64,000 bases of DNA from the NCBI RefSeq assembly GCF_000331225.1, contig NZ_ANFY01000006.1, positions 62,001 through 126,000 of the forward strand, in the 5' to 3' direction. Of the stretch, positions 36,236 to 60,503 are shown piece by piece (the first letter of the stretch is position 1; each line of letters opens with the position of its first letter). The position numbers and the translations under genes were made by a program. The notes under the pieces are model-generated. The model was not told the origin of the DNA. It was given only the letters and a program-made list of their open reading frames with translations, and searched no databases. The stretch is from Sandarakinorhabdus sp. AAP62 (GTDB lineage: Bacteria; Pseudomonadota; Alphaproteobacteria; Sphingomonadales; Sphingomonadaceae).

Positions 36236-37312
36236 TCAACTCTTGATGGCCTTCAGGCCCCACGCAAACACCTTGCGTGTGTTTTCCTCTTCCAGTGCAA
36301 ATTGCGCCGCCGGTGAAAGTCCGCTGACAGTCGGTAGCTTGGTCTGGCGCTTGGAAACCATGGCGAGCCACCTCTCGACGCGCGGCTGGCGGTCAGCAAA
36401 CGGCGCGTGATAGCCGCTGGTCAGCACAGGCACCCTCAGCGGATCACGGGTGATCAGTTCGGTGGTGGGGAAGATCTTCGGGTTGGCCTTTCGCATCATC
36501 CCGAACAGTTTGGCCTGATCAGTCATGCCAGTATCGAACAGCACTTCAGACAGCAGGAAGCCATCCTCGTAGGGCGCCACGCCCATGTCCTTCAGGGAAC
36601 AGGCCTTCACCCACGGACTGAGCGCAGCGACCGTCTCTTCCGGCATTTCCATGAAACTCATGTTGTTGCCGGGATCAATCAGGCTGCCGAGATATTCGCT
36701 GTCGATACGCTTCAGCAGCGCGACATGTTCATGAACCGTGCGGTCCTTGTGGTTCTCCAGCGCGATCGCGATGCGATATTTCTCGGCAATCGGTACACAG
36801 CGTTCGATGATGGCATTGGCTTCGGCCAGCCAGCTGTACCAATCCTCGCGGCTGCGGAAGGTCTCGTACCGCCGGCCGGTGCCACCTTCGGGCGGACGCG
36901 AAACTGCGCGCACACAGGTGGCGCCCAGCGCCGCTGCGGCCTGCACGCTGGCTTCGAACGGGCCATAATCGCCGTCGCGCCGGCTGGGCAGCGCGGCCTG
37001 GCCTTCATAATACATGCCCAGTTCGTCCAGCCGGGCCCGGAAGCGTGCGATGTGGGCCTTGCCCACGCCGATCTGCACACCGCCACCGCCCAGGCTGCGG
37101 ACATAGTCGAGGAAGGCCACCGGATCATCGCGCAGGCCTCTGGCCACGCCGTCGAGCCCGCGCAGATGCGCCGAAAGCCCGGTGCCGGCGATGCCGAGCG
37201 GCGACTTGGGCGGCAGCGCGCCTTCCGACTGGGCAATGGCCAGGCTGGGGAAGCCGGCAAACAGGGTAGCGGCAAAGCCGGCCTGTGCGAACCGGCGACG
37301 GCTCATCAGCAT
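36236..37312 (-). CDS. Tat-exported sugar isomerase/epimerase-like TIM-barrel protein
   Basis: 358-aa AP-endonuclease-2/xylose-isomerase-like barrel with a twin-arginine signal (SRRRFAQAGFAATLFAG) and cleavage near AIAQ. Probable metal ligands are the Glu in IALENHKDR, Asp in SLIDPGNN, the KACSLKDMG region and the Glu in TTELIT. Acts in the periplasm, on a free sugar or keto-sugar; exact isomerase or epimerase reaction unknown. It follows the TonB receptor gene on the same strand after 76 bp that contain a strong hairpin, so it is likely co-transcribed and under the same GntR-type operator at 40261. Confidence 0.85.
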   Translation of the reverse strand: MLMSRRRFAQAGFAATLFAGFPSLAIAQSEGALPPKSPLGIAGTGLSAHLRGLDGVARGLRDDPVAFLDYVRSLGGGGVQIGVGKAHIARFRARLDELGMYYEGQAALPSRRDGDYGPFEASVQAAAALGATCVRAVSRPPEGGTGRRYETFRSREDWYSWLAEANAIIERCVPIAEKYRIAIALENHKDRTVHEHVALLKRIDSEYLGSLIDPGNNMSFMEMPEETVAALSPWVKACSLKDMGVAPYEDGFLLSEVLFDTGMTDQAKLFGMMRKANPKIFPTTELITRDPLRVPVLTSGYHAPFADRQPRVERWLAMVSKRQTKLPTVSGLSPAAQFALEEENTRKVFAWGLKAIKS

Positions 37313-37345
37313 TCAGCATCTCCCTTCGCATCGCCTTGAAACAAA

Positions 37346-37370
37346 TGTGCCGGGCACGAGGCCCGGCACA
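37346..37370 (-). terminator. Strong intercistronic hairpin after the TonB receptor gene
   Basis: Perfect 10-bp stem TGTGCCGGGC/GCCCGGCACA with a 5-base loop between the receptor stop and the isomerase start. Only ATTTG follows in the minus direction, so it may reduce read-through or protect the upstream message instead of ending all transcription. Confidence 0.6.
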
Positions 37371-37388
37371 AGTGACTTCAGAAGTTGA

Positions 37389-40037
37389 TCAGAACTTTGT
37401 CCGCAACGTGAGTTCCAGCGTCCGCCCGAATGGCGAGTGGGCGTTGCCGAAGAAGCCCTGCGTGCCATCATAGAAGGGCGGCCAGCGGTTGAAGATGTTC
37501 GATCCGCGCAGCTGGATCTGGCTGCCCTTCAGCACGTTGGGCAGATTATACTGAACGGTGAGATCGAACGTCTCCCAGCTCTTCACATTGGGGAAGGCGG
37601 TGCCGGAGGTGATGTTGGTGAACGGGCCGATGTAGGTCATGAAGGCCGACACGGTCAGATCATCCAGGTTCCAGCTCAGCTGGCCGCGGCCGCGCCACTT
37701 GATGGCGCTCTGCTGGCCGATGATATCCTGGAAACCGGTGCCCGGCGCAAGTTCCTGACGGAAGCCCAGCTGGCGGTTGGCGTTCACGTTCAGCGTGAAA
37801 TTGCCGATGCTGGTGGGCACCTTGTAGCTCAGATCAAGATCGAGACCATCGATGATGCGCTGGCCGACATTGATCGCAAACGACTGGAAGATGGCATCGA
37901 TCCGCGCCGGCACCGGGCTCTGCGGTGGCGCTGCCGCAATGGCCGCCGCCACCTGCGCCGGGGTCGGATTGCGGATCACCGCGAAGCTGAAGAACGGGTT
38001 GTTGAACGCGTCCGCCTGCGTCGGCTTGTAGACCAGATTCTTGTAGGTCACATTGTAGTAGGTGACGCTCAGCTTGAGGCCGGGGACAAAGCTGGGCGTG
38101 AAATCGGCGCCCAGCGAGTAGGTTTCGGCCTCTTCCGGGGTCAGCGCCGGATTGCCGCCGCCCTGGTTGTAGATGTTCACGTTGTTGCCGAAGCCGGCGA
38201 TGTTCAGGCCGATCTGCGGCACGCCGAAGATCGAGGTGATCAGGCCCATGTTCGGCGCGACAAAGCTGGTGCTCCACGAACCCCGCAACGACAGGTCCTT
38301 CACCGGTGCATAGACCAGGCCAACCTTCGGATTGAAGGTACCGCCCAGCTGCTGGTAGTGGTCGTACCGGCCGGAAACCGACAGTTCCAGCCGCTCGATG
38401 CCGGGCATGCCGTTCTGCGAGGTGAAGAACGGCAGGTTGATTTCGGCAAAGGCCGCCGCCACGAAGCGCGAAATCCGGTCGTCGCGCACCAGCAACTGGG
38501 TCGGGCCGGGCACGCCGCCGATCTGCAGCTGATCGGCCTGTTCGTCGCGGAACTCGGTGCCGACAGCCATGCGGGCGTCGCCGCCACCAAGGGCGAACAA
38601 CGGGCCATCGGCCTTCACCATCAGCTGGCGCAGAAACTGCGAGCTGTCATTGATCTGCGTGAAGCCATTGTCGATCTGGGCCAGCACGCCCGGATTGTTC
38701 TGGCCAGCCTGGCCAAACGGGTTGAAGGCGGTGGTCAGCGTCGACCCATTGGCCAGATTCTGCGCCGCGATCAGATCGATTTCCGGCTGCGAGTTGAAAT
38801 CGTTGGTCTTGGAATAATGGGTCATCACGTTGAGCAGCCAGCCACCGCCCAGCTTCACGTCGGCACCCAGCGTGATGGCCAGCACTTCGGATTTCTGCGT
38901 GTTCACCGGGTTGGGGAACAGGCCTTCGCCGTTGCGCACCACGCTCACGGTCTGGCCCGGCGTCAACGACACGCCCGGCGGCAGCAGCAGATAGGGATTG
39001 TTCTGCGGCACGGTGATGTTGAGGTTGCGTGGGTTGGCCACGCGCGAGGTTTCAAGGTTGGAATAATTGGCTTCGGCCCACAGCGTGACAGTGTCGTTCA
39101 GTTCCTGCCGGGCCGTCGCCAGCACCGAATAGCGCGTCGATTCCGGCACCACTTCCTGCGCCAGCTGGTTTTCGCAGCGGTTGCGGTTGGCGTTGCCGGT
39201 GGCAAACGACGGATAGGCATAGACGGTACTGCCAATGGTGACGTTGGGCAGCGAGCAGGTGGTGGTGCGCCGGTCAATGCCGCCGCGGAACCGCTGATCG
39301 GCCCGGATGAAGGGGATTTCCTCGTTGGTGGGCGACTTGTTGGCGCTGTACTCGCCAACGATCATCACGTTGCCGGTGGACCATTTCTTGCCCCAGCCCA
39401 GCGCCAGGTTGCGCTTTTCATAGGAATGTTCGGGCGAGAAGCCGTAGGTGCCCTGCGCTTCGAAGCCATCCATGTCGCGGCGGTAGACGAAGTTGGCAAC
39501 ACCGGCGACGGCATCGGAACCGTAAACGGCCGACGAACCATCGGCGACGATCTCAACGCGGCCGATGCCCAGCACCGGGATCATGCCCGGATCGGGCAGC
39601 ACGGCTTCACCGCCGACGGCGGCCATGCGGTGGCCGTTGAACAGCGCCAGCGTCGCGAAGATGCCGATATTGTGGATGTTGGGCAGGAAACCGCCGGTGC
39701 GGAAACGGCCGGTGGTGGCCACTTCGTGATTGACGCCGAAGTTGCCAAGTTGCGGCACCAGGCTGAGCAGTTCCGACAGGTTGGCCGGCGCGTTGACCTT
39801 CACGAATTCCTGATCGACGCCGATCAGCGGCGACCCGATCGGCGCGACGCCGCGGATGCTGGTGCCGGTCACCACGATTTCGGCGGCTTCCTCGGCAGCG
39901 CCGGACTTGTCATCGGCTGCGGCTGCGGCTGTCTGGGCGGCAGCAGCCCCGGCGAGCGTGAACGCAAGTGCGGCAGCACCCGCCATGCAAGTGGCGCGGT
40001 GCAGTTGGCCCCGCTTCAGGAATAGGATGCGCGTCAT
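37389..40037 (-). CDS. TonB-dependent receptor of the sugar-acid regulon
   Basis: 882-aa outer-membrane receptor: long signal region ending near AGAAAAQT, IVVTGTSIRG start of the plug, IGRVEIVADGSSAVYGSDAVAG plug motif, a large barrel and LRTKF C-terminus. The plug style (GSSAVYGSDAVAGVANF) is that of the large receptor group expanded in sphingomonads for plant-derived carbohydrates and other organics. ATG at 40037 after GGGGGAGAAAGC. A CTGTATACAG palindrome lies between a probable TTGACG -35 and -10 box at 40251-40280, which links it to the nearby GntR regulon. Substrate is inferred to be a sugar or glycoside. Confidence 0.92.
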   Translation of the reverse strand: MTRILFLKRGQLHRATCMAGAAALAFTLAGAAAAQTAAAAADDKSGAAEEAAEIVVTGTSIRGVAPIGSPLIGVDQEFVKVNAPANLSELLSLVPQLGNFGVNHEVATTGRFRTGGFLPNIHNIGIFATLALFNGHRMAAVGGEAVLPDPGMIPVLGIGRVEIVADGSSAVYGSDAVAGVANFVYRRDMDGFEAQGTYGFSPEHSYEKRNLALGWGKKWSTGNVMIVGEYSANKSPTNEEIPFIRADQRFRGGIDRRTTTCSLPNVTIGSTVYAYPSFATGNANRNRCENQLAQEVVPESTRYSVLATARQELNDTVTLWAEANYSNLETSRVANPRNLNITVPQNNPYLLLPPGVSLTPGQTVSVVRNGEGLFPNPVNTQKSEVLAITLGADVKLGGGWLLNVMTHYSKTNDFNSQPEIDLIAAQNLANGSTLTTAFNPFGQAGQNNPGVLAQIDNGFTQINDSSQFLRQLMVKADGPLFALGGGDARMAVGTEFRDEQADQLQIGGVPGPTQLLVRDDRISRFVAAAFAEINLPFFTSQNGMPGIERLELSVSGRYDHYQQLGGTFNPKVGLVYAPVKDLSLRGSWSTSFVAPNMGLITSIFGVPQIGLNIAGFGNNVNIYNQGGGNPALTPEEAETYSLGADFTPSFVPGLKLSVTYYNVTYKNLVYKPTQADAFNNPFFSFAVIRNPTPAQVAAAIAAAPPQSPVPARIDAIFQSFAINVGQRIIDGLDLDLSYKVPTSIGNFTLNVNANRQLGFRQELAPGTGFQDIIGQQSAIKWRGRGQLSWNLDDLTVSAFMTYIGPFTNITSGTAFPNVKSWETFDLTVQYNLPNVLKGSQIQLRGSNIFNRWPPFYDGTQGFFGNAHSPFGRTLELTLRTKF

Positions 40038-40348
40038 GCTTTCTCCCCCAACGCAGTTGCTGCCAGGCAGGCAATTCATGGCAATGGGGGGGACGGCGTC
40101 AGATCTGCTGCCGGATTTGCCGGCAATGTGGGCAGACCATCTGCCCACTCCACCCTCCCCACACACCACCATGCGCGCGCCCCTGCTGCATGGCAGGGCC
40201 TGTCACGACACCGGCTGGCCGCCACGCCTCTTCCGGGCAATGGCTTGCAACACTTGTAGACTGTATACAGATGGCGTCAACGCCAAACTGTAATAGGGTG
40301 CGGGGTGCATCGATCAGAAGGCAATCAATCGCCCGGTGATGCAGAAAA
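40038..40348. promoter_or_regulatory. Promoter region of the TonB receptor and end of glcF
   Basis: 311 bp. Contains the operator at 40261-40270 with a minus-strand -35-like TTGACG ending near 40277 and a -10-like CTACAAG near 40255. The rest of the stretch shows no gene. Confidence 0.5.
40261..40270. promoter_or_regulatory. GntR/FadR-type operator (CTGTATACAG) at the TonB receptor promoter
   Basis: Perfect 10-bp palindrome placed in the spacer of the probable receptor promoter. Matched 9 of 10 at 44286-44295 and at 60489-60498, and by its GTATAC core at 49833-49838. Confidence 0.65.
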
Positions 40349-41620
40349 TCAACAGTTTTGCGGCGAGAGACCCGGCGGCGTTGGCCCGCCACTGGCCCAA
40401 TCCAGCAGTTCCACCATGTGGACGATATGCAGTTCAGGCCCACCGCTCTGCCCAATCTGGCCGATGCAGCCGATGTTGCTGCTGGCCACGATCTGCGCGC
40501 CGGTGGCCGCCAGCGCCGCCTGCTTGCGGCGCTTGAGTTCGGCCGAAAGTTCGGGCTGCAGGATGGCATAGCTGCCGGCCGAACCGCAGCAGACATGGGC
40601 TTCGGCCGGATCGCGCACGTCAAAGCCGGCCGCCACCAGCAACTGGCGCGGCGCCGCCTTCACCTGCTGGCCGTGCTGCAGGGAACAGGCGCTGTGCCAG
40701 GCGACAGCGATGCCGGGAGGCAGCTGCGGCGGCAGCGGCGGCAACAGGGCCAGATATTCGGAAATGTCGCGCGCCTGGGCGGCAATGGCAGCGGCGCGGG
40801 CGGCCATGGCGGGATCATCGCCAAACAGCGCTGCATAATCCTTGATCACCGTGCCGCAGCCTGATGCGGTGATGATGATGGCATCCACCGGCCCCACCGC
40901 TTCCCAGGCTTCGATGTTGGCGCGGGCATGGGCGGCGGCGGCGGCTTCGCGGCCGAGGTGATGATCGAGCGCACCACAGCAGGCCGATTGCCGGGTGATC
41001 ACCACCTCCACGCCATGACGGGCGAGCAGGCGCAGCGCCGCATCGTCGATGGCCGGACGCAGCACCGGCTGCACGCAGCCCAGGTGCAGGATAACCCGGC
41101 CAACGCGGGCAGCGGCCGGCAGCGGTGGCGCCAGGCGCTCGGCCAGACCTGCTGCCGGCACATCATCCGGCACCATCGCCAGCATGGCCGCCAGGCGGGC
41201 GGGCAGCAACGGCGCCAGCCCCCGCACCAGCCGGCCCGCGCGCAGAGCCAGGCGGAAAAGGCCGCGCCGGGTGAGCAGCGCCGGCAGCAGGGCGCGCAGC
41301 AGGCGATCGGGCAGCGGCCGGCGATGGGTGGTTTCGATATGGGCGCGGGCGGCATCAACCAGATGCATGTAATCCACCCCCGACGGGCAGGTGGTGGTGC
41401 ACGACAGGCACGACAGGCAGCGATCGATATGGTGCACGGCACGCGGGGACGGGGCAGCGGCCGGGTTGGCCAGCATATCCTTCATCAGCCAGATGCGGCC
41501 GCGCGGGCTGTCCAGCTCGTCGCCGGTGACCAGGTACGTCGGGCAAGTGGCAGTGCAGAAGCCGCAGTGCACGCATTTGCGGATGCGATCCTGCGCGGCG
41601 GCGACATCGATGCTGCTCAT
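40349..41620 (-). CDS. glcF: Glycolate (2-hydroxyacid) oxidase iron-sulfur subunit
   Basis: 423-aa protein with two N-terminal 4Fe-4S ferredoxin motifs (CVHCGFCTATCP and CLSCLSCTTTCP) and two CCG domains (ACCGALDHH, VCCGSAGSY) that bind a further cluster. Passes electrons from the flavin subunits to the quinone pool. ATG at 41620 overlaps the glcE stop (ATGA). The three Glc subunits are encoded in order D-E-F, each overlapping the next. Similar three-subunit oxidases act on D-lactate, so substrate (glycolate versus lactate) is set by context here. Confidence 0.93.
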   Translation of the reverse strand: MSSIDVAAAQDRIRKCVHCGFCTATCPTYLVTGDELDSPRGRIWLMKDMLANPAAAPSPRAVHHIDRCLSCLSCTTTCPSGVDYMHLVDAARAHIETTHRRPLPDRLLRALLPALLTRRGLFRLALRAGRLVRGLAPLLPARLAAMLAMVPDDVPAAGLAERLAPPLPAAARVGRVILHLGCVQPVLRPAIDDAALRLLARHGVEVVITRQSACCGALDHHLGREAAAAAHARANIEAWEAVGPVDAIIITASGCGTVIKDYAALFGDDPAMAARAAAIAAQARDISEYLALLPPLPPQLPPGIAVAWHSACSLQHGQQVKAAPRQLLVAAGFDVRDPAEAHVCCGSAGSYAILQPELSAELKRRKQAALAATGAQIVASSNIGCIGQIGQSGGPELHIVHMVELLDWASGGPTPPGLSPQNC

Positions 41621-42750
41621 GCCGCGCCTCCCGGTGCCGCGGCGGGCGACAGGATGCCGGCGGGATCGAACAGCGCCTTCACTCGCGCCGACAGGGCGGC
41701 CACGCCCGGTTCCAGCGGCGCACGCGCCGGGATCGGGCCGTCGCCGCGCAGCCGTTCGGCATGGCCCTCGCGGCCGGCCGCCTGCGCCACCAGCGCATGC
41801 ACATCGAGGTCGGCCGCACTGGCCGGCAGCAGCACCCAGGCCAGCGCGCCGGCCCAATCCAGCCGCAACCGCGCTGCTGGCGGCAGCAAGGCCGCCAATG
41901 CCGGCGCACGGCTGGCGGGCAGCGGACAGCGCCAGATGATTTCGTCGGCGCGGGCATGGCCATGAAGGCTGGCGATCGCCGCCCACAGCGCGCGGCTGGC
42001 GTCGCCCTCGATCAGCTGGCCAGCGGGCAGCCGGGCGCGGGCGGCGTCCACCAAGGCTGGCAGCACGGCCGCGCTGGCCTCGATGCGCAACTGCACCGCG
42101 CCCTCACTCCACGCCGCGCCGGTGATGCCGCCGTCGATCATCAGCGCATCGGCCATGATGCGCACTGCCTTGGCCGGCGTGTCGGCGGGGAGCAGCAGGG
42201 TCGCCTGCGCCGGCGCCAGCGGCAGCACTTTCAGGGTGATCTGAGTCAACACCGCCAGCGTGCCGCGTGAGCCGGTGAGCAGGCGCGGCAGATCAAAGCC
42301 CGTCACATTCTTCAGCACCTTGCCGCCAGCGGTTAAAATCTCGCCGCGCCCGGTCACACCCGAAAGGCCCAGCACATGATCACGGCAAGCCCCGGCGAAC
42401 GGTCGGCGCGGGCCGGAAAGCCCGCTCGCAATGGCACCGCCGATCGTGCCATGGCCCAGCCCCCAGATGGCATCAGGCGAAGGCGGCTCGAACGCGAGGC
42501 ACTGGCCGGATTGCGCCAGCAGTCGTTCGACATGATCGAGCGGCGCCGACGCTGGCAGGGTGAGCAGCAGCTCGGCCGGATCATGATCAATGCTGCCACC
42601 AAGACCGGTCAGATCCAGGTCCGCCTCGGCTGGGCCAGGGCCGATGCCGGGCCGGCTGCCGCTGCCGGAAACGGCCAGCGACCGCCCATGCGCCGCTGCA
42701 TCGCGGATCACTTCGGCCAGTTGCTCAGTCGTGGCAGGGCGACAGGCCAT
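41617..42750 (-). CDS. glcE: Glycolate oxidase FAD-binding subunit GlcE
   Basis: 377-aa FAD-binding-4 protein, a shorter paralogue of GlcD without the C-terminal catalytic half. Seen: the FAD region PPSPDAIWGLGHGTIGGAIASGLSGPRR and GKVLKNVTGFDLPRLLTGSRGTLAVLT, typical of GlcE. Needed for activity of the GlcDEF complex on the inner face of the membrane. ATG at 42750 shares its A with the glcD stop. Length is normal. Confidence 0.92.
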   Translation of the reverse strand: MACRPATTEQLAEVIRDAAAHGRSLAVSGSGSRPGIGPGPAEADLDLTGLGGSIDHDPAELLLTLPASAPLDHVERLLAQSGQCLAFEPPSPDAIWGLGHGTIGGAIASGLSGPRRPFAGACRDHVLGLSGVTGRGEILTAGGKVLKNVTGFDLPRLLTGSRGTLAVLTQITLKVLPLAPAQATLLLPADTPAKAVRIMADALMIDGGITGAAWSEGAVQLRIEASAAVLPALVDAARARLPAGQLIEGDASRALWAAIASLHGHARADEIIWRCPLPASRAPALAALLPPAARLRLDWAGALAWVLLPASAADLDVHALVAQAAGREGHAERLRGDGPIPARAPLEPGVAALSARVKALFDPAGILSPAAAPGGAA

Positions 42751-44234
42751 CAGAATCGGGGCAATTCAGGAAATGGCAGCCGCCCACCATGGACATGCAT
42801 GGCGTTCATTTCGGCACAGCGCGACAGGGTGGGGAATAATTTGCCGGGATTGAGCAGGCCATGCGCGTCAAAAGCGCATTTCAGCCGGCTCTGCACCGCC
42901 AGATCGATGGCGCTGAACTGATGTTCCATCAGATCGCGCTTTTCCACACCCACGCCATGTTCGCCGGTCAGCACGCCGCCGGCATCAACGCAGGCTTTCA
43001 ATATCGCGGCACCGGCCGCTTCTGCCGCCGCGGTCTGGCCCGGCACCGATGCATCATACATCACCAGCGGGTGGAGATTGCCATCGCCTGCATGGAACAC
43101 GTTGGCCACCCCCAGGCCGTGGCGGGCGACAATGGCGCTGATCTCGCCCAGCACCGCGCCAAGCTGCCGGCGCGGGATGGTGCCATCGACGCAATAATAA
43201 TCCGACGCGATGCGACCCACGGCGGGAAACGCCGCCTTGCGCCCGGCCCAGAACAGCAGCCGCTGCGCTTCGTCGGTGGAGGCGCGCAGGTGGGTGCAGT
43301 TGTGAGCCTTGGCGATTTGGGTGATGCGGGCAAGCTGGTCGTCAACCTCGGCCGCGCTGCCATCGGCTTCCGCGATCATCAGCGCTGCCACATCGGTCGG
43401 GTAACCCGCCTGCACGAAATCCTCGGCCGCGCGGATGGCCGGTGCGTCCATCATCTCCAGCCCGGCCGGGATGATGCCAGCCGCGATGATCGCCGCCACA
43501 CAGTCGCTGGCATCGGCGACGGAGGGAAAGCCGAGCAGCAGCGCGCGCTGCGTCGCGGGTTTGGGCAGGATGCGCACCGTCGCTTCGGTGACGACGCCCA
43601 ACAGCCCCTCCGAGCCACAGACCAGACCGAGCAGATCATAGCCGGCCTGCTCCTGCCCCGGGCCACCCAGGCGCAGCACCGTGCCATCGATCAGCACCAG
43701 TTCCACCCCCAGCAGATTGGGGCTGGTGGTGCCATATTTCAGGCAATGCACGCCGCCGGCATTTTCCGCGACATTGCCGCCAATCGAACAGGCAATCTGG
43801 CTCGACGGATCGGGCGCATAATAAAAGCCCTTGTGCGCAATGGCTTGCGATACGGCGAGATTGGTCACACCCGGCTGCACCACGGCGCAGCGATTGTCAT
43901 AATCCACGCGCAATATGCGGTTGAAGCGCGCCATGCCGAGCACGATGCCATCGGCCAGCGGCAGCGCCCCGCCCGACAGCGAGGTGCCCGATCCGCGTGC
44001 GACCACCTTCACGCCATTGGCATGGCACCAGGCCAGCACCCGGCTCACCTGTTCCGTCGTGCGCGGCAACACCACGGCCAGCGGGCTTTGCCGGTACATC
44101 ACCAGCCCATCGCTGCCATAGGGCGAGACGCCATCCACATCGGCGATCACCCCATCCGGCACGATGGTGCCAAGCGCAGCGGCGATTTCAACCTGTCGGG
44201 CCATGACAGCAGCGTCGGGTTCTGGCATCTTCAT
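42750..44234 (-). CDS. glcD: Glycolate oxidase catalytic flavoprotein subunit GlcD
   Basis: 494-aa FAD-linked 2-hydroxyacid dehydrogenase. FAD-binding-4 domain (VVARGSGTSLSGGALPLADGIVLG about residues 77-100; IGGNVAENAGGVHCLKYGTT about 150-170) and FAD-oxidase C domain with HAGDGNLHP and the C-terminal GEHGVG. Converts glycolate to glyoxylate; close homologues use D-lactate. First gene of glcDEF, divergent from the IlvD/Edd dehydratase over a 110-bp region with a GntR-type operator. In this setting it would remove the two- or three-carbon hydroxyacid made by the FAH-type hydrolase. Confidence 0.93.
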   Translation of the reverse strand: MKMPEPDAAVMARQVEIAAALGTIVPDGVIADVDGVSPYGSDGLVMYRQSPLAVVLPRTTEQVSRVLAWCHANGVKVVARGSGTSLSGGALPLADGIVLGMARFNRILRVDYDNRCAVVQPGVTNLAVSQAIAHKGFYYAPDPSSQIACSIGGNVAENAGGVHCLKYGTTSPNLLGVELVLIDGTVLRLGGPGQEQAGYDLLGLVCGSEGLLGVVTEATVRILPKPATQRALLLGFPSVADASDCVAAIIAAGIIPAGLEMMDAPAIRAAEDFVQAGYPTDVAALMIAEADGSAAEVDDQLARITQIAKAHNCTHLRASTDEAQRLLFWAGRKAAFPAVGRIASDYYCVDGTIPRRQLGAVLGEISAIVARHGLGVANVFHAGDGNLHPLVMYDASVPGQTAAAEAAGAAILKACVDAGGVLTGEHGVGVEKRDLMEHQFSAIDLAVQSRLKCAFDAHGLLNPGKLFPTLSRCAEMNAMHVHGGRLPFPELPRF

Positions 44235-44264
44235 GCGATCATCCTGGGCTGCGACGGGTCTGGT

Positions 44265-44301
44265 TTGACAGGGTAAAACTGTCGTCTATATACAGTTTTA
44301 C
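44265..44301. promoter_or_regulatory. Promoter and GntR/FadR-type operator between glcD and the dehydratase
   Basis: TTGACA (44265-44270), a 16-bp spacer and TATATA (44287-44292) form a consensus-like promoter for the dehydratase. Overlapping its -10 is CTATATACAG (44286-44295), 9/10 to the site at 40261, within longer inverted arms GTAAAACTGT and ACAGTTTTAC (44273-44282, 44292-44301). The central TATATA can also serve the divergent glcD transcript. Confidence 0.72.
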
Positions 44302-47894: not shown

Positions 47895-48086
47895 TGGAGC
47901 GGTTTTCGATCAACTTGGGTCTGCGGCGCGGGAGCGATTTTGGTTTGGGGCAAGAAGCGAGGAGGGCGCGATGCCTTAAGCATCGTAACCGATGAGCGAC
48001 GCTGCCCTGAGCCGAAATCGCCCCGCCCCGAAGGGGTCGCCCTTAAGGGCGATGACGCTGATCCAAGTTGGTCGAAAGCTGCTCTA
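47895..48086. mobile_element. MITE-like palindromic intergenic element
   Basis: About 192 bp between the convergent FAH and SDR genes that folds back on itself. Outer arms 47895-47925 and 48056-48086 are about 31-bp imperfect inverted repeats (AGCGGTTTTCGATCAACTTG against AGCAGCTTTCGACCAACTTG). Inner arms built on GGGAGCGATTTTGG/ CCGAAATCGCCCC also pair, and two TTAAG palindromes occur inside. It has no coding capacity; its right end contains the SDR stop codon. A non-autonomous transposed element is the best reading; a structured RNA is the alternative. Confidence 0.6.
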
Positions 48087-49669: not shown

Positions 49670-49809
49670 GACCAATTCTCCCTGGCCTGGCGCCACAACC
49701 GAGCCCCCCACTTGCCACCATGCCCGCCCCAAGCTGGTCCATTTCCAGGCTGCCCCTCAAATGGGGGCAGCGGCAAGCTCAATATCGACATTGGCCCGGA
49801 CAGGGTGAA

Positions 49810-49845
49810 TTGACAAGCAAAAATCGTATTCAGTATACACTTGCG
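49810..49845 (+). promoter_or_regulatory. Promoter with GntR-type operator before the permease operon
   Basis: TTGACA (49810-49815), 18-bp spacer, TATACA (49834-49839). The -10 is inside CAGTATACAC (49831-49840), whose GTATAC core equals that of the site at 40261. This would control the five-gene operon 49.9-55.6 kb. Confidence 0.62.
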
Positions 49846-49890
49846 CCTGCCGATAGTCTAAGCGCACACTATCCAGGCGAATTGGGGGGA

Positions 49891-51150: not shown

Positions 51151-51154
51151 GCAC

Positions 51155-53436: not shown

Positions 53437-54548
53437 GACCGGCACTGATTCTGGCCATGGCCCTGATGGCTGCGCCGGCCTTCGCCGCCACCGCCAGCAT
53501 TGCGCCTTTCGGCACCAACGCCAAGGGCGAGACCGTCGAAGCCATCACCCTGGCCAACAAGGCCGGCATCAAGGTGGTGATCCTCACCCGCGGCGGCGCT
53601 CTGGCCGAAGTGTCGGTGCCGGATCGGCAGGGACGCCTTGCCAATGTCGTGCTCACCCGGCCCGATTTCGTCGCCTGGGATCGCGGCGGTTCCTTCAACA
53701 CGCTGATCGGTCGTTTCGCCAACCGTATCGCTGGCGGCGGCTTCAGCATCGATGGCCAGCGCTTTGCCCTGCCAGCCAATCCCGAAACCGGCATCACCAT
53801 TCACGGCGGGCAAGGTGGCTGGGGCACCAGGCTGTGGAAGCCCCGACTGATCCCGTCAGGCAGCACGGCCGGGGTCGAGCTCAGCCTCGACAGCCCGGAT
53901 GGCGACAATGGCTTTCCCGGTGCGGTGAAGGTGACCGCCACCTACACGCTCAATGACGCTGGCGAGCTGCGGCTGGACTGGCGGGCGACGACCACGAAGC
54001 CGACGCACATCAACGTCACCAACCACGCCTATTTCACCCTGGCCGGCCATGGCGGCGCGCCGGTGGACAGCCAATCGCTGCGCCTGTTCGCCAGCCGCTA
54101 CACGCCGGTTGATGCCAGGATGATCCCCACCGGCGAAATCGCGCCCGTGGCCGGCACACCCTTCGATTTCCGCAAGCCGCAGCCGATTGGCCCGGCCCTG
54201 CGCAGCAACCACCCGCAGATCCTGCTGGCACGCGGCATCGATCACAATCTGGTGATCGACGGTGCGGCCGGCACCTTGCGCGCTGCTGCAGAGCTGGTGG
54301 ATTCAGTCTCCGGTCGGCGCCTGCTGGTTTCCACCACCGAACCGGGCATGCAGGTCTATACCGCCAACAATTTCAACGGCAGCCAGCCCGCCAGCAACGG
54401 CCTGCTGCTCCGGCAAGGCGACGGGATCGCCTTTGAAACCCAGCATTTTCCCGACAGTCCCAACCAGCCGTCCTTCCCGTCCACGTTGCTGCGGCCCGGT
54501 GAGGTCTTCACCTCCACAACCGTCTATGCCTTTGGTGTGATCAAATGA
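53433..54548 (+). CDS. Periplasmic aldose 1-epimerase (mutarotase)
   Basis: 371-aa protein with signal peptide (MRPALILAMALMAAPAFA) and the GalM fold: FNTLIGRFANRIAGG, His124 in TIHGG, catalytic acid His198 in NVTNHAYF and base Glu335 in AFETQHFPDSPN. It interconverts alpha and beta anomers, here likely to supply the anomer that the neighbouring sugar dehydrogenase accepts. The start overlaps the dehydrogenase stop (ATGA), and its own stop overlaps the next ATG. Confidence 0.92.
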   Translation: MRPALILAMALMAAPAFAATASIAPFGTNAKGETVEAITLANKAGIKVVILTRGGALAEVSVPDRQGRLANVVLTRPDFVAWDRGGSFNTLIGRFANRIAGGGFSIDGQRFALPANPETGITIHGGQGGWGTRLWKPRLIPSGSTAGVELSLDSPDGDNGFPGAVKVTATYTLNDAGELRLDWRATTTKPTHINVTNHAYFTLAGHGGAPVDSQSLRLFASRYTPVDARMIPTGEIAPVAGTPFDFRKPQPIGPALRSNHPQILLARGIDHNLVIDGAAGTLRAAAELVDSVSGRRLLVSTTEPGMQVYTANNFNGSQPASNGLLLRQGDGIAFETQHFPDSPNQPSFPSTLLRPGEVFTSTTVYAFGVIK

Positions 54549-55612
54549 AACGCCTCGCTGCGGCTTTCCTGGCCCTTGCCGCGCCAGCGCAGGCGCAGGA
54601 ACTGAAGATCGTCAGCATCGACGTCGAGGGTGGGGCTGCCACACTCTATGTCACGCCAGAGGGTCGGTCGCTGCTGATCGATGCGGGCTGGCCTGCGGGG
54701 CGCGGGGTGCCGCGCGCTGCACCGGGCGAACCGCCGGTGCCAGCCTCGGCTTCAAGTGCAGAACGAATTGTCGCCGCCGCCCGTGCCGCCGGCCTCAAGC
54801 GGCTCGATCATGTCGTCATCAGCCATTATCATGTCGATCATGTTGGCGGCCTGTTGGACTTGCTGAAGCTGTTCCCGGTCGGGCAGGTGATCGATCATGG
54901 TCCCAACCGCGAACCGCTGCGTGAAGGGCTGAACCCCGGCCAACGCGCCAATGCGCCGGCCACATTGTACCCGCTCTACACGGCGGCCATTGCCGGCCTG
55001 AAACACCGCGTGCTGGCCGCGGGCGAACGCCTGCGCGTCGGCGGCCTTGAACTGATGGCCGTGAACAGCGATGGCGAAGCCAGCCCGCGCCCGCTGCCGG
55101 GCGGCGGTGGCCCGGGGCATGGCTGTGATGGCCCGGCGGCCAAGGCCGAGAATGGCGGCGAGGAGAACCCGCGATCGCTGGGGCTCCTGTTGCGCTGGGG
55201 CAAGGCCCGCATCCTCAGCCTCGCCGACACGACGTGGACGCTGGAGCACAGCCTGGTGTGCCCGGTGAACCGCATCGGCCGGGCCGACCTGATGTTTGCC
55301 AACAACCATGGCAGCGATCTGTCCAACCCGCCGTCGCTGCTTGCCAGCGTGGCTCCGCGTGTCGTGGTGGTGAACAATGGCCCCACCAAGGGCGGTGACG
55401 CCGCCGTGCTGCAGCGCCTGCAGGCCCTGCCCGGCACCGTGGTGTGGCAGCTGCACGGGGCGCTGCGCAACCCGGCCGCCAATGTTGCGCCAGCGCGTAT
55501 CGTCAACCCCGGCCGCGATGACAATGGCAATTTGCTGATCAGCGTGCGCCGCGACGGGCGCATCGCCATCAGCAACCCGCGCACCGGGGCCAGCGAGACC
55601 TATTCGCCCTGA
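54545..55612 (+). CDS. Exported metallo-beta-lactamase-fold hydrolase
   Basis: 355-aa protein with signal peptide (to AQAQ, residue 18) and the metal motif ISHYHVDHVGG (His94, His96, Asp98, His99); further ligands probably in LADTTWT and NNHGSD. The DVEGGAATLYVTPEGRSLLIDAGWP start resembles ComEC-type MBL domains. Substrate unknown. As the last gene of a periplasmic sugar-oxidation operon it could be the lactonase that opens the lactone, but this is inference. The 3' end overlaps the convergent ABC permease gene by 13 bp. Confidence 0.8.
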   Translation: MKRLAAAFLALAAPAQAQELKIVSIDVEGGAATLYVTPEGRSLLIDAGWPAGRGVPRAAPGEPPVPASASSAERIVAAARAAGLKRLDHVVISHYHVDHVGGLLDLLKLFPVGQVIDHGPNREPLREGLNPGQRANAPATLYPLYTAAIAGLKHRVLAAGERLRVGGLELMAVNSDGEASPRPLPGGGGPGHGCDGPAAKAENGGEENPRSLGLLLRWGKARILSLADTTWTLEHSLVCPVNRIGRADLMFANNHGSDLSNPPSLLASVAPRVVVVNNGPTKGGDAAVLQRLQALPGTVVWQLHGALRNPAANVAPARIVNPGRDDNGNLLISVRRDGRIAISNPRTGASETYSP

Positions 55613-57138
55613 GCCGGCTCGGGCTCGGGTTGGTCATTCGGCAGCGGCGGGTCGCCCACCCGCCGGCCTGACAGCCGCCCCAGCAGCTTGAAGGCATAGA
55701 GCATCACCCGACCGCGCACGGCCGATTCCGGTCCCGCATGGGCCGGCAGGCCCAGTGCGGGCAGATCGGCGCGGGCAGCAACACTTCCGGCATCGGGATG
55801 CAGGGCAATGGCCAGCAACAGTCGCTGCAGCGCCGGCGCCGCAAAGCGTGCCTGCAATTGCGCTTCCACCAGCAGTGGCAAATGGCGTTCCAGCGGGTCC
55901 ATTTGCAACAGGTCGGGCACGGCAGCGATCAGCAACAATGTGCGCACCTGCTGTTCCTCGCTGCCGGAGCGGGCCGGAGGCCAATCCGCCAGTTGCCGCT
56001 GGATGCGGGCCAGCGCATTTTCCAGCACCGCATCAGGCGGCCCGTTGGCGATCGGCGCGACCAGGCCGGAATCGGGTGGCAGCCGTTCAAACGCGATGCC
56101 ATCAAGGGCGGCGGCAAGATCGTCCGTGGCTGCCGCCGGCACCGGCGGCTGGGGCGGGGCCGCGATGGGCGCAGCGAGCGGTGATGCAGCAGCTGGGGCA
56201 GCAGCAGATGGGGCAGCAGCTGGAGCAGCGGCCGCCGCAACGGTAATGCCGGGCGCAGGCCGCACATAATCGGCCGGCTGGCCGGCGTTGGCGGTGTCCG
56301 GAGCGGCGGGCATCGGCTGCTGGCGGACATTGGCCACCACCACCAGCGCCAACCACAGCCCGATCAGCGGCAGCAGCCACAAACCACGGCGGCCGGGCCG
56401 CAGCGGCGCGGCCGGTTCCCAGCGAAACAGCAGCACGGCCGCCAGCAGCGCCAGCAAGCCGTGGCCTGCCAGCGCCAGCAGTTCAAATCCCGCTGCGCGC
56501 GTGCCCGTGCCGGTGACCGCCGTCTGGATCGCCACCACCGCATGGCGGCCAGGCAGCAGATTGGACCACGGCAGCGCCCAATCGGGCAGGCTGGCCAGCG
56601 GCACTGCCACGCCGCCCAGGATCAGCATTGGCAGGAAGATGCACTGGCCCAGCGCCTGCACCGCCGGCACATTTGGCGCCAGATTGCCGATCAGCGCGCC
56701 AAGGCACAGGAAACACAGGCCTGCGATGGCCAACGCCAGCACGGTCGACACCGGGTGCGGCAGCGGCGGCATGCCCAGCGCCCGCGCCGCCCAGTGCTGC
56801 AACAGCAGGGCACCAGCCAGCAGCGCCGCCCGCGCCAGCACCAATGCCACCACAAAGCGCCAGCGCGGGGCCGGCGTGAGCGCATAGTGCCGCCACAGCC
56901 CGCTCTCGCGCTCGCTGACCATCTGGGTGGGCAGGCCGAAGGCCGCACTGCCCAGGATGGTGATCGTGAAGAACTGGCCGGCATGCAGCGCCAGCGGCAC
57001 AGGATCATCGCCGTAAAGCGCAGCAAAGCCGGCGAGGAACAGCAGCGGGAACAGCCAGCCATAGATCAGCGCCATCGGGTTGCGCAGCGAGGCCAGCAGA
57101 TTGGCGCGCACCAGTGGCCACAGCGGTCCTTCAGTCAT
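55600..57138 (-). CDS. ABC-2 type permease with an unusual C-terminal periplasmic extension
   Basis: 512-aa protein. Residues about 1-255 are an ABC-2 permease with six hydrophobic segments (ANLLASLRNPMALIYGWLFPLLFLAG, FGLPTQMVSERESGLWRHYALTP, FLPMLILGGVAVPL). A seventh hydrophobic segment (LWLLPLIGLWLALVVVANV) is followed by a long Ala/Pro linker and about 150 residues of helical, soluble sequence with no recognised family. The start is ATG 57138, overlapping the ATPase gene by 8 bp. Partner of the ATPase at 57131-57790, downstream of a cytochrome c dehydrogenase; ABC pairs of this kind are known beside PQQ- and cytochrome-linked dehydrogenases, with unclear cargo. Confidence 0.82.
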   Translation of the reverse strand: MTEGPLWPLVRANLLASLRNPMALIYGWLFPLLFLAGFAALYGDDPVPLALHAGQFFTITILGSAAFGLPTQMVSERESGLWRHYALTPAPRWRFVVALVLARAALLAGALLLQHWAARALGMPPLPHPVSTVLALAIAGLCFLCLGALIGNLAPNVPAVQALGQCIFLPMLILGGVAVPLASLPDWALPWSNLLPGRHAVVAIQTAVTGTGTRAAGFELLALAGHGLLALLAAVLLFRWEPAAPLRPGRRGLWLLPLIGLWLALVVVANVRQQPMPAAPDTANAGQPADYVRPAPGITVAAAAAPAAAPSAAAPAAASPLAAPIAAPPQPPVPAAATDDLAAALDGIAFERLPPDSGLVAPIANGPPDAVLENALARIQRQLADWPPARSGSEEQQVRTLLLIAAVPDLLQMDPLERHLPLLVEAQLQARFAAPALQRLLLAIALHPDAGSVAARADLPALGLPAHAGPESAVRGRVMLYAFKLLGRLSGRRVGDPPLPNDQPEPEPAQGE

Positions 57139-57790
57139 GGCCGGGCCTTTCCTGCAGCAGATCGGCCAGCACCGCGCCCGCCACCAGTCGGCCATTGTCG
57201 AGCAGCACCAGCCGATCACACAGGCTGGCGGCCTCGTCGCGGTCATGGGTCGCCATCAGGATGGCCGCACCGGTTTCCCGCCGTTCGGCGAGGATGGCGG
57301 CAAGATCGCGCCGCATGGCCGGGTCGAGCGCGGTGGCAGGTTCATCAAGCAGAATGACAACCGGCCGGTGCTGCAATGCCAGCGCCAACGCCAGCCGCTG
57401 TCGCTGGCCGGCCGAAAGGCGGCGCACCTGCTGCTGCGCGATGGCGGTCAGACCGAGGCGCGAGGCCAGATCGGCGCAGGGCGCCACGCCGTGCAGGACG
57501 GCAAACAGCTGCAAGGTCTCGGCCACGCGCAGCCGTTCGGGCAGGCCGGGCTGCTGCATCAACAGGCCAGTGGCCCGCCGCGCCGCCGGGCTGCCCGGTG
57601 GATGGCCGGCCACGCTGATCTGCCCCGCCTGCGGCCGGGCCAGGCCGGCCACACAGTCCAGCAGGCTGGACTTGCCGGCACCGTTCAGCCCGATCAGGCC
57701 GACGATCTCGCCCGCTGCCGCCGTGATCGACACGTCATCCACCACGCGGCGCCCGTCGCGGCTGCGGGTCAGGCCCTCGATCAGGATCAT
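57131..57790 (-). CDS. ABC transporter ATP-binding protein
   Basis: 219-aa ATPase: Walker A GLNGAGKSS, Q-loop MQQPGLPERL, signature RLSAGQRQRL, Walker B VVILLDEPATALD and the H-loop MATHDRDEA. Length and the CcmA/NatA-like arrangement match ABC-2 exporters. ATG at 57790 begins 10 bp after the stop of the cytochrome c dehydrogenase gene; the end overlaps the permease start, so the three are one operon under the operator at 60484-60503. Confidence 0.93.
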   Translation of the reverse strand: MILIEGLTRSRDGRRVVDDVSITAAAGEIVGLIGLNGAGKSSLLDCVAGLARPQAGQISVAGHPPGSPAARRATGLLMQQPGLPERLRVAETLQLFAVLHGVAPCADLASRLGLTAIAQQQVRRLSAGQRQRLALALALQHRPVVILLDEPATALDPAMRRDLAAILAERRETGAAILMATHDRDEAASLCDRLVLLDNGRLVAGAVLADLLQERPGHD

Positions 57791-57800
57791 GCCTTCACCC

Positions 57801-60446
57801 TCATCGCTGCGGGGCGTCGATATCCTTTTCCGACCAGGGCGTGGTGCGGTGGGCAAAGGCCAGGCGCCATTCCTTGACGGCGGCCGGCGGCAACGGCGTT
57901 GCCGTATTGCCCCAGCTCTGGCGGACATAGGTGAGCACGGCGGCCACCTCCTCGTCGCTCATGGCGCTGCCGAGCGGCGGCATCAGGCCGATCTTGCCTT
58001 CCAGTCCGTTGGTGAGGATGCGCACCGGCACATCGCCGTTCGCGGCAACACGCTTCGATCCGGCCAGTGGCGGCGCCACCGTGGCCTGGCCCTGGCCTTG
58101 CAGCTGGTGGCAGCCGGAACATTGCTCGACATAGATCGACTGGCCGCGCCGGAACAAGGCTTCTTCGCCGGCACTGCGCGGTGGCAGCGCTGGCGGCGCC
58201 GGCCGGCCCGGCCAGGTGACCAGCGCCAGCAATTTCCTAGCCGGCTCGGCCAGTGCGTCCTTGCCGTCGGCCAGCACCGCCAACCCGCGCGGCTCCGACG
58301 CCAGTTCGAAGCGGCTGCCGCCGCCACGCTGCCGGGTGACGCCGGGGATATTGCCGCCCGCGCGCCCGCCGGCCACGGCATTGCCGCCGGCCTGCACGCC
58401 GCCGGCCAGCCCGAGGGCCAGCCCGTCGAGCAGGGCGTTGCGCACCAGTGCCGGCTGCCCGGCATCGCCGGCCATCGCCACCAACTGGCCAATGGCGGCA
58501 TCGCGGCGCTTGGCCAGCGCACCAGACAGCATGGCCAGCGCCTCGCGCGGCGCGCCAGCCTGGCCAGCCAGCGCGGTGAGCACCGCCATCTCGCCGCCCT
58601 TGAGGCCTGAAAGCGCCGCATCGACCAGCACCGGATCATCGCCCTGCGCATTCAGCAACGCAATCATCGGTGCGGTACGCTGTTCGGCCGGCAACGCGCC
58701 AAGGCTGGCGGCAAGCTGCACGCGCACCTGCCAATTGGCGTCGACGGCCAATGCCAGCGCCGCCTTGCTCATCTTCCTGTCGCCCGTGGCCAGCCAGGGT
58801 TCGGCCAGCCGCAAGCCGGCGGCGCGCAATTCCGGCCGCGTATCGGCCATTGCGATCAGCGCCAGCGCTGGCTGCATGCCGCCGATGCCATTCAGCGTCC
58901 AGAGCGCGTGCAGGCGGGTGCGCCAATCGGTCTTGCGGTCGCGCACCAGCCGTTCCAGCAGGGGCCGGCTCCTGGGATCAGCCCGCTGCACCAGCAGTTG
59001 CTGGGCGGTGTCGCGCCACCAGCCATTGGGGTGCGCCAGATGCGCCACCAGGCTGGCGGTCGTATCGCGGCTCATCTGCGGGCGGGCATCGCGCGGCATC
59101 CGGGCGGCCGCACCATTGGCGCCAACATGCACCACCCGATAGATGCGGCCATGGCCGGTGCCCCGCGCCAGCCCGCGCTTGTTGATATAATCCCGGAGAT
59201 AATCGGTCTGCAGCGGGCCATCCTGCGAGACACCGCGATACATGTCGGCGATGTAGATGGTGCCATCAGGGCCGCCAGCAAGCGCCGTGGGCCGGAACCG
59301 CACGTCGGTGGAGGCGAGGAATTCGCCCCTGGCATAATAATCCTCTGCCGCCATCCGGCCCTGGCCATCATCCTTCAGCCGCAGCAGGTGCACGATGTTG
59401 GTGGCCCCATCCGCCACGAAGGCCATGCCCTGCACGTCGGCTGGCAGGCGGGTGCCGCGATAGATCAGGGGCGAGGACACGCCGCCATAATAGCTGGCGG
59501 TGCCATCGGCGCGGAACACCTCACGCCGGTAGCCGCGATTGAGACCGAAGGTGGGATGGGCTGGCCAGATGTTGGTTTTCTCCTGATCGACGAGATTCTC
59601 GTACAGTCCGCGGGTGCGCACCAGATCGGGATTGCGGGCAAAATAATCCGGCGAAACATAATCGACGAACAGCGGATCGGTGTTGACGTTGCGATAGATG
59701 CGCCCGGCATCATCCTGGGTGACGCCCCACTGGCCGCGGCGCAGGCCCGGCACGGTGACGAACTGGCCGGCCCTGTAGGCGACGTTCCATTCATGCTCGG
59801 AAACGACCAGCAGATTGTCCATCCCCCAGAACAGCCCGTTGGCGCCATGTTCGAGCACGCCCAGCCGGGCAAAGCCGTCGGCGACTTTCTCCCTGGTATC
59901 GGCCTTCAGGTCACCATCGGTGTCGCAGGCCTTCCACAGCGTTGGCGGCTCGCCAATCAGCGCGCAGCCACCCGCGAGGATCTTGAAGGCGCGGGGCAGC
60001 ACCAACTTGTCGGCAAAGACCGTGCGCTTGTCGAACACGCCATCATTGTCGCTATCATCCAGCACCACCAGGCGGTTCACCGGTTCCAGGCTGTTTTCCA
60101 TCGACAAATTGTGCGCCCAGCCGGGCAGTTCCATCACCCAGAGCCGACCTTCGCCATCGAATTCCATCAGGATCGGATCCTGCACCAGCGGTTCGGTGGC
60201 GACCAGTTCCACCGCATAGCCCGGCGGCATCGCAAAGCTTTTCAGCGCATCGGCGGGCGCGCGCACCGGCGGTTCATCGGGCTCTTCCGCCGTGAAGAAG
60301 GGCCAGGGCCGGTTCAGTTCGCTGCGCGGCGGCACGGCCAGATCGGCTGCCGCCAACAGCAACGGTGCCGCCAATGCTGCGGCTGCCGCGCCCATCCCTG
60401 CCCTGCGACGTGCCCTGTTTCCTGCCCTGATCATCATCCTGCCCAT
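57801..60446 (-). CDS. Cytochrome c-containing membrane-bound dehydrogenase (PVC-type/GSDH propeller, HEAT-like repeats)
   Basis: 881-aa exported protein. Signal region (GAAAAALAAPLLLAAADLA), then a propeller of the putative membrane-bound dehydrogenase type (PPGYAVELVATEPLVQDPILMEFDGEGRLWVMELPG, HGANGLFWGMDNLLV, GPDGTIYIADMYRGV), HEAT-like helical repeats about 460-720, and a C-terminal cytochrome c (CSGCHQ near residue 776, distal Met in GLMPPLGSAM). It probably oxidises a sugar in the periplasm and passes electrons to the respiratory chain. ATG 60446 (or the ATG 12 bp later). The upstream palindrome at 60484 places it in the GntR regulon. Closest groups are abundant in Planctomycetes and Bacteroidetes. 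Confidence 0.85.
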   Translation of the reverse strand: MGRMMIRAGNRARRRAGMGAAAAALAAPLLLAAADLAVPPRSELNRPWPFFTAEEPDEPPVRAPADALKSFAMPPGYAVELVATEPLVQDPILMEFDGEGRLWVMELPGWAHNLSMENSLEPVNRLVVLDDSDNDGVFDKRTVFADKLVLPRAFKILAGGCALIGEPPTLWKACDTDGDLKADTREKVADGFARLGVLEHGANGLFWGMDNLLVVSEHEWNVAYRAGQFVTVPGLRRGQWGVTQDDAGRIYRNVNTDPLFVDYVSPDYFARNPDLVRTRGLYENLVDQEKTNIWPAHPTFGLNRGYRREVFRADGTASYYGGVSSPLIYRGTRLPADVQGMAFVADGATNIVHLLRLKDDGQGRMAAEDYYARGEFLASTDVRFRPTALAGGPDGTIYIADMYRGVSQDGPLQTDYLRDYINKRGLARGTGHGRIYRVVHVGANGAAARMPRDARPQMSRDTTASLVAHLAHPNGWWRDTAQQLLVQRADPRSRPLLERLVRDRKTDWRTRLHALWTLNGIGGMQPALALIAMADTRPELRAAGLRLAEPWLATGDRKMSKAALALAVDANWQVRVQLAASLGALPAEQRTAPMIALLNAQGDDPVLVDAALSGLKGGEMAVLTALAGQAGAPREALAMLSGALAKRRDAAIGQLVAMAGDAGQPALVRNALLDGLALGLAGGVQAGGNAVAGGRAGGNIPGVTRQRGGGSRFELASEPRGLAVLADGKDALAEPARKLLALVTWPGRPAPPALPPRSAGEEALFRRGQSIYVEQCSGCHQLQGQGQATVAPPLAGSKRVAANGDVPVRILTNGLEGKIGLMPPLGSAMSDEEVAAVLTYVRQSWGNTATPLPPAAVKEWRLAFAHRTTPWSEKDIDAPQR

Positions 60447-60483
60447 ATGGCTTTCGTGCCGCAGGTGGCGGCGCTTGGCAATT

Positions 60484-60503
60484 GCATACTGTATATAGTA
60501 TGC
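60484..60503. promoter_or_regulatory. GntR-type operator at the cytochrome c dehydrogenase promoter
   Basis: A 20-bp palindrome GCATACTGTATATAGTATGC; its core CTGTATATAG is 9/10 to the site at 40261. For the minus-strand promoter a TCTGAC -35 about 17 bp from TATATA fits, so the operator covers the -10, as at the other sites. Confidence 0.65.

Follow-up and report, generated by a model that had tools for sequence, protein, structure and literature searches.

Gene content and strand organisation of the locus

We analysed 64,000 nucleotides of the Sandarakinorhabdus sp. AAP62 genome (3.13 Mb, listed as 100% complete), spanning positions 62001-126000 of contig NZ_ANFY01000006.1 (C6:62001-126000) and called the window here, and concentrated on a gene cluster at 36236-60446 that is predicted to oxidise a sugar and to degrade the resulting acid by a non-phosphorylating route. 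Positions are those of the window unless a contig is named, G, L and C numbers are our labels for genomes, loci and contigs, and publications are cited by PubMed Central (PMC) number, each for those excerpts of its text that concern the point. Open frames were picked by codon-position GC, and families were assigned from Pfam and NCBIfam scans together with the translations. By these means all 15 kinds of gene listed in a first-pass annotation, made from the sequence letters, were found in the cluster. They lie in five blocks on alternating strands, which rules out a single operon with one strand and one promoter, and the supra-operon of that annotation gives way to this arrangement.

The first block, on the minus strand, holds an exported xylose-isomerase-like TIM-barrel protein, ISO (36236..37312; PF01261, E 2e-9), with a twin-arginine-type SRRRF motif read by eye, followed by a TonB-dependent receptor (37389..40172; PF00593, PF07715), whose real start is probably 3' of the listed ATG, and by genes for a glcF-like Fe-S subunit (40349..41620), a glcE-like subunit (41617..42750) and a glcD-like FAD subunit (42750..44234). 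On the plus strand, the second block comprises an IlvD/Edd sugar-acid dehydratase (44345..46162), a GntR/FCD regulator (46302..46979; PF00392, PF07729; start approximate) and a predicted 2,4-diketo-3-deoxyaldonate hydrolase of the FAH family (47029..47874). The third returns to the minus strand with two short-chain dehydrogenases, SDR1 (48084..48824), a predicted 4-dehydrogenase of the BDH2 type, and SDR2 (48839..49732; PF13561), with a real start near 49667.

The fourth block, on the plus strand, begins with an MFS sugar-acid permease (49720..51150; PF07690), which has its real start near 49921 and its best NCBIfam match in the D-galactonate transporter subfamily TIGR00893 (222 bits, cut-off 395). 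Next to it lie SDR3 (51155..51910), an exported glucose/sorbosone-type aldose dehydrogenase (GSDH) of the pyrroloquinoline quinone (PQQ) type with a fused cytochrome c (51907..53436; PF07995 at 377 bits, PF13442; relatives 7cdy and 2g8s), an exported aldose 1-epimerase or mutarotase (53442..54548; PF01263, TIGR02636; start approximate) and an exported MBL-fold hydrolase (54545..55612; PF00753). The fifth block, on the minus strand, consists of an ABC-2 permease with a C-terminal extension (55600..57246; PF01061, PF12698), an ABC ATPase (57131..57928; PF00005; top NCBIfam match TIGR03864 at 143 bits against a cut-off of 302) and a PVC-type DUF7133 propeller-HEAT-cytochrome c protein (57801..60446; PF23500, PF13442, TIGR02604).

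The unit seems to extend past 60503, to a BtuB-like TonB receptor on the plus strand (61264..63090), which is kept beside the DUF7133 gene, to an exported carboxylesterase on the minus strand that runs from 63181 past the window end to about 64810 (PF00135 on the whole gene), and to a further receptor-like gene that lies beyond it, outside the window, and has no Pfam hit.

The conserved core and its enzymes

Conservation of the neighbourhood across sphingomonads, proposed as a check in the first-pass annotation, was seen for six of the genes in ten loci. Among 80 loci of dehydratase relatives (flanks as retrieved), two share the cluster, L002 (Novosphingobium piscinae) and L003 (Polymorphobacter multimanifer), and 78 are without the core neighbours. 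SDR2 as a marker across 397 genomes of the family gave eight loci, the window's genome included, and the FAH gene, followed across 396 genomes of the order, gave a further locus in G365. These nine and L002 make up the ten core loci; L003 (G397) is the same cluster as that of G385 and was counted once. The core loci cover at least five genera and their genes are rearranged from locus to locus, and in 10/10 the GntR, FAH, SDR1, SDR2, MFS and SDR3 genes occur together, with SDR3 beside the permease, so that chance grouping is excluded. Among the other genes (some loci are cut by contig ends), GSDH is present in 8/10, a ThuA gene in 7/10, the mutarotase and the MBL protein in 6/10 each, the dehydratase in 5/10 and ISO in 3/10. 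ISO has orthologues in L002 (82%) and L003 (63%) and was found in two of 396 genomes of the order, the window's being one; it has no match to a solved structure at 0.001, and its predicted structure, built from three sequences with a mean predicted local distance difference test score of 41, was not used.

The dehydratase carries the Fe-S cysteine and serine motifs described for such enzymes (PMC5770437), and its nearest solved structures are the Caulobacter D-xylonate dehydratase 5oyn (936 bits in phmmer) and then the galactonate dehydratase 7m3k. In the window's genome it matches only one other gene, which is IlvD-like and 35% identical. This proximity to a D-xylonate dehydratase, with no closer match in the genome, favours a pentose pathway, in which D-xylose or another pentose would be converted through xylonate to 2-keto-3-deoxy-D-pentonate (D-KDP), oxidised by SDR1 and cleaved to pyruvate and glycolate, with GlcDEF oxidising glycolate to glyoxylate. 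We consider such a pathway, with D-xylose as the sugar, the main rival of the reading preferred below; a homologue of SDR1 is reported to use D-KDP and to yield glycolate together with the hydrolase (PMC6336799). However, IlvD/Edd sugar-acid dehydratases also accept hexonates and a 6-deoxyhexonate, and two bacterial members, strict at C2 and C3, take pentonates and hexonates alike, that of Caulobacter preferring D-xylonate and D-gluconate (PMC9795676). The dehydratase class therefore does not tell pentonates from hexonates and is no pointer to a pentose.

The FAH protein is closest to L-2,4-diketo-3-deoxyrhamnonate hydrolase (8gsr, 338 bits) and scores 419 bits on NF053535 (cut-off 500). Its C-C cleavage residues His82 and Glu85 and the acidic ligands are kept in 10/10 core loci. 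In a tree of sphingomonad loci, from which the Herbaspirillum huttiense protein is absent and in which four control loci fit neither sugar label, the core FAH proteins form one clade (100/100), separate from those of L-rhamnose- and L-fucose-like loci.

For SDR1 the nearest chains are 8y11 and 8xwk (244 bits) and 8y4j, which group with 8y46, followed by human BDH2 (2ag5); 8Y46 and 8Y4J are complexes of 2-keto-3-deoxy-L-fuconate (L-KDF) 4-dehydrogenase (PMC11199699). Arg148, Thr183, Arg192 and Arg214, the R-T-R-R motif of type 1 L-KDF dehydrogenases, are kept with the Ser-Tyr-Lys residues in all ten core loci. The first-pass pairing of a non-phosphorylating 4-dehydrogenase with an FAH diketo-acid hydrolase thus agrees with the closest structures, those of the H. 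huttiense L-KDF 4-dehydrogenase and 8gsr, at the level of prediction from sequence.

The substrate contacts of SDR1 differ from those of the L-KDF enzyme at one site. In H. huttiense, Trp252 touches the C6 methyl of L-KDF, and the W252M variant is about an order of magnitude less active on L-KDF, with Met listed by the authors among the common residues at this site (PMC11199699). The corresponding residue is Met in 10/10 core loci; among 20 control enzymes (at least 50% identity), all with the same R-T-R-R, it is Trp in 13 and Phe in one, with no aligned residue in six. The Met speaks mildly against L-fucose and, as it changes a methyl contact, can also be counted in favour of a pentose. The L-KDF dehydrogenase favours 4(S) substrates, including the one derived from gluconate (PMC11199699), which we count in favour of the reading preferred below. 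A hexonate such as D-gluconate, with D-glycerate as the second product, is a very unlikely substrate: a XylD-type dehydratase takes D-gluconate (PMC9795676), but the activity of the L-KDF dehydrogenase on 2-keto-3-deoxy-D-gluconate is weak, 105-fold below that on L-KDF (PMC11199699).

GlcDEF, Dld and the second cleavage product

The flavoenzyme of the cluster is exchanged between loci. In the window, GlcF exceeds its NCBIfam equivalog cut-off (NF008434, 413 bits against 333), and GlcE (NF008439, 255 against 284) and GlcD (650 against 897 and 492 against 568) fall under theirs. Compared with the E. coli glc operon, GlcD is 58% identical, GlcE and GlcF only 34-38%, and no glcA- or glcB-like hits occur in the core loci. 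Nine core loci could be read for this comparison, that of G982 being cut by a contig end and excluded. Six hold glcDEF (the window, L002, G385, G872, G946 and G841), three hold Dld instead (G365, G827 and G893; that of G365 scores 902 bits on NF008387, cut-off 391) and none holds LldD. The controls were 51 loci (L119-L129, L183-L222) taken from the 67 non-core loci among 70 places with an FAH gene, their FAH genes being more distant; GlcD or Dld was found in six, four of them also with LldD, and 14 contained LldD (identity 59% or higher), leaving uncounted weak matches in eight loci (glcF-like, 28-33%, without glcD) and in five (LldD-like, 33-38%). Comparing core with control loci by Fisher's test, we obtained p = 3e-7 for the enzymes of the D-type, and for LldD p = 0.10; both values are too small, since the loci are related, and are indicative only.

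We take Dld to act on D-lactate, as the name of its model and the E. coli annotation say. GlcDEF of E. coli is reported to oxidise D-lactate about as fast as glycolate (PMC10272880), and its exchange with Dld therefore points to D-lactate as the substrate common to both. On this comparison of sequences, D-lactate would be the likeliest second product, ahead of glycolate, which is a possible one. The first-pass annotation had combined the IlvD/Edd dehydratase with GlcDEF to propose a pentose and glycolate; besides the breadth of the dehydratases, the three loci with Dld and the absence of a glcB- or gcl-like gene from any of the ten core loci weaken that proposal and count against the pentose pathway. 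In the cleavage step of Route III, the non-phosphorylating pathway of 4-oxidation and hydrolysis, the chiral carbon of lactate is C5 of the sugar, so that D-lactate would imply a 6-deoxyhexose of the D-series. Together with a D-gluco configuration it would imply quinovose, and D-rhamnose would lead to the same 2-keto-3-deoxy acid.

Two observations on control loci concern the same enzymes. In L212, L213, L214 and L216, which are of the L-rhamnose type, lldD has glcD and glcF nearby, which would suit a role of GlcDEF in D-lactate oxidation in these loci. In L222 (G179:C31:78000-97999), about 1 kb separates a distant FAH gene (53%) from a Dld gene (61%), possibly a second D-lactate branch.

Regulation, periplasmic genes and the proposed pathway

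A candidate operator, TGTAT-N5-ATACA, is present at four promoters in the window and at a fifth site just outside it. We scored it with a 21-base position weight matrix (PWM) derived from the SDR2/MFS and GntR promoters of other species, with near relatives left out for the scores in the window. The strongest site in the window (49823..49843, score 20.8) overlaps a TTGACA-N18-TATACA promoter; the others lie upstream of the TonB receptor (40251..40273, 12.9), between glcD and the dehydratase at a further TTGACA-N18-TATACA promoter (44276..44298, 13.9) and between the DUF7133 gene and the VTT/BtuB-like genes (60479..60508, matrix site 60481, 15.4). The site outside the window, between the carboxylesterase and the receptor-like gene (C6:126826), scores 22.8. 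The four sites have the top matrix scores in the window, the next being 12.0 at 20282, outside the unit and near the weakest member (12.9), and column-shuffled matrices gave at least four hits in 2% of 300 trials. Across the genome, the half-site pattern with one mismatch occurs at 12 places against seven for a reversed control; three of the 12 are inside the unit and the other nine are inside script-called frames, some of them doubtful. Relatives have operator-like sites near the starts of quinoprotein, receptor, ThuA and GSDH genes; in G827 there is also one some 0.5 kb upstream of dld. The motif is likely, though unproven, as an operator shared by the promoters of the unit, and the GntR/FCD protein, which may bind to it, probably controls the unit as a regulon with several promoters.

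The export signals, read by eye, are in keeping with the first-pass proposal that oxidation starts in the periplasm, and the entry dehydrogenase looks PQQ-dependent. Only two of the ten core genomes, G365 and G872, have pqqC and pqqE over the cut-off; in the other eight, the window's included, neither gene reaches it (G946 is 71% complete), and the quinoprotein steps would need PQQ from outside, unless the proteins do not use it. We considered whether the BtuB-like receptor might import PQQ, as E. coli PqqU does; it aligns to E. coli BtuB (E 3e-20) and gives no alignment to PqqU, and among its relatives a weak PqqU match always ranks below BtuB, so the idea is a guess. The MBL protein has ComEC-type domains as its nearest solved relatives, which leaves its candidacy as the lactonase unproven. 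At L170:14063-19467 (G827), the neighbours of the core genes include a cytochrome c, an MBL protein and two PQQ-propeller dehydrogenases.

The receptor, ABC and DUF7133 genes stand beside the cluster in only four of the ten genomes (the window's, G385, G365 and that of L002), and a DUF7133 gene adjoins it in G396, G385 and G365 as well as in the window. In another alphaproteobacterial family, G536 (L149-L151, G536:C9:600000-659999) combines the BtuB-like receptor, the ABC pair and the DUF7133-cytochrome c protein with several GSDH-like genes. The 60 kb read there gave no match to FAH, SDR1, the dehydratase or GntR, and the periplasmic block may form a separate module. Clusters for 3-keto-glycosides contain members of the ISO and ThuA families. 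Both the G536 locus and the patchy adjacency would suit two adjoining systems, a Route III block and an independent quinoprotein, receptor and ABC block oxidising glycosides in the periplasm (3-keto type, with ISO and ThuA). We regard this as unlikely: the blocks travel together in four genomes with common operator-like sites, and in G365 the DUF7133, ABC, GSDH, mutarotase, MBL, Dld, dehydratase, GntR and FAH genes all lie on one strand, a link between periplasmic genes and core in that genome. Among plasmids, no record matched the DUF7133 protein over 80% of its length, and the FAH matches were many distant genes.

The reading we prefer (probability about 0.5) is a regulon with several promoters, probably under the control of the GntR/FCD protein, for oxidising a D-configured sugar by Route III. 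A TonB receptor would bring the sugar, or its ester or glycoside, into the periplasm, where the mutarotase and the cytochrome c-linked quinoprotein would oxidise C1; the lactone would be opened, perhaps by the MBL protein, and the aldonate imported by the MFS carrier. The IlvD/Edd enzyme would then form a 2-keto-3-deoxy acid, SDR1 would oxidise it at C4 with NAD, and FAH cleavage would release pyruvate together with a D-2-hydroxy acid. The latter would most likely be D-lactate, to be oxidised to pyruvate by GlcDEF or, in relatives, by Dld. As substrate we propose a D-6-deoxyhexose of the D-gluco type (quinovose) or D-rhamnose. This reading draws on gene families, active-site residues, synteny, the exchange of GlcDEF and Dld and the shared operator-like motif, and from these we infer the substrate, the order of steps, the lactonase, GntR binding and all activities. 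No firm role in it can be given to the ThuA and DUF7133 proteins or to the ABC pair. Only tentatively would we go further and see here the first dedicated route for D-6-deoxyhexoses of the quinovose type, with periplasmic quinoprotein oxidation using PQQ acquired by bacteria that do not make it, Route III to D-lactate, interchangeable GlcDEF and Dld, and one operator.

Several observations weigh against the preferred reading. SDR2, SDR3 and ISO have no assigned step in the pathway, and the scanned genes include no recognisable quinovosidase or other glycosidase. The dehydratase adjoins the core in only five of the ten loci, the window's included; of the five genomes where it does not, four encode a 58-71% relative at another place and G946 (71% complete) only a 41% one. 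The Met at the Trp252 site suits D-KDP from a pentose as much as a D-deoxyhexonate, and GlcDEF oxidises glycolate too; malate synthase, a point for the pentose pathway, is present elsewhere in 10/10 core genomes and is therefore useless for telling the products apart. As to regulation, operator and -10 box overlap at two promoters of the window. Once the -10 hexamer is masked, 44276 stands at rank 1 and another site at rank 3, and 49823 falls to rank 40 and 40251 to rank 182; weighed against a reading as mere promoter sequence, the motif is thus only partly independent. Matrix scores of 15.0 to 18.2 also occur outside the unit, among the nine half-site places there, at C9:227036, C20:42806 and C2:34482 (L256, L250, L251), and the sequence before dld in G893 and G365 gave no operator-like site. 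The first-pass view of the locus as GntR-regulated accordingly gains a shared candidate operator at four promoters and is weakened where sites overlap the -10 box and lose rank, or score near background.

Among known systems, published accounts of Route III cover L-rhamnose, L-fucose and pentoses, with glycolate formed from pentoses (PMC6336799). The H. huttiense pathway (C785_RS13675, C785_RS20550; PMC6336799, PMC11199699) resembles the core in its type 1 4-dehydrogenase motif, its FAH residues and its NAD-linked 4-oxidation followed by hydrolysis; the core loci differ in the invariant Met, in having GlcDEF or Dld in the cluster and in the quinoprotein entry genes. The core FAH clade stands on its own among sphingomonad loci, the H. 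huttiense protein lying outside that tree. Within the same bacterial order, the L-rhamnose and L-fucose pathways share the dehydrogenase-hydrolase logic, and the former is known as LRA. A RhmD-like dehydratase is present in 28/51 and LldD in 14/51 of the control loci, in contrast with no RhmD-like gene in the core loci and LldD in 0/9, and the marks of that branch (Trp at the C6-methyl contact, RhmD-type dehydratase, LldD) are absent from the core. The oxidative D-xylose (Weimberg) pathway of Caulobacter is the source of 5oyn, the dehydratase's nearest structure; unlike the Weimberg and Dahms pathways, the locus shows no aldehyde dehydrogenase or aldolase family of the dihydrodipicolinate synthase type among Pfam hits at 36-63 kb, the part of the genome searched for them. 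PQQ aldose dehydrogenases of the Asd/YliI type have the GSDH domain in common with the window protein, which differs in its fused cytochrome c and in a host without pqqC or pqqE over the cut-off.

The locus may extend a known pathway by a new branch and would then not be a system of a new kind. That no described system joins all its parts, as the first-pass annotation held, agrees with the open-access literature searched, where the matches listed include no description of this gene combination or of quinovose breakdown by it; the formation of glycolate from pentoses by Route III is, however, already published (PMC6336799). A D-lactate branch, if real, would explain how bacteria could use D-6-deoxy sugars, for example from plant saponins and resin glycosides; no described pathway for such sugars was among the same matches. 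It would also mean that a 'glycolate oxidase' annotation can hide a role in D-lactate oxidation, and would suggest a pathway relying on PQQ from neighbours.

Elsewhere in the window, genes for a GH68 levansucrase/invertase, a ROK kinase, a tryptophan-halogenase-like flavoprotein, a TonB receptor, a LacI regulator and an MFS protein lie at 14024-22807, perhaps a sucrose or fructan locus. At 23258-24630, two adjoining genes have partial DUF4331 matches, one of them below the cut-off, and are followed by a TPR protein.

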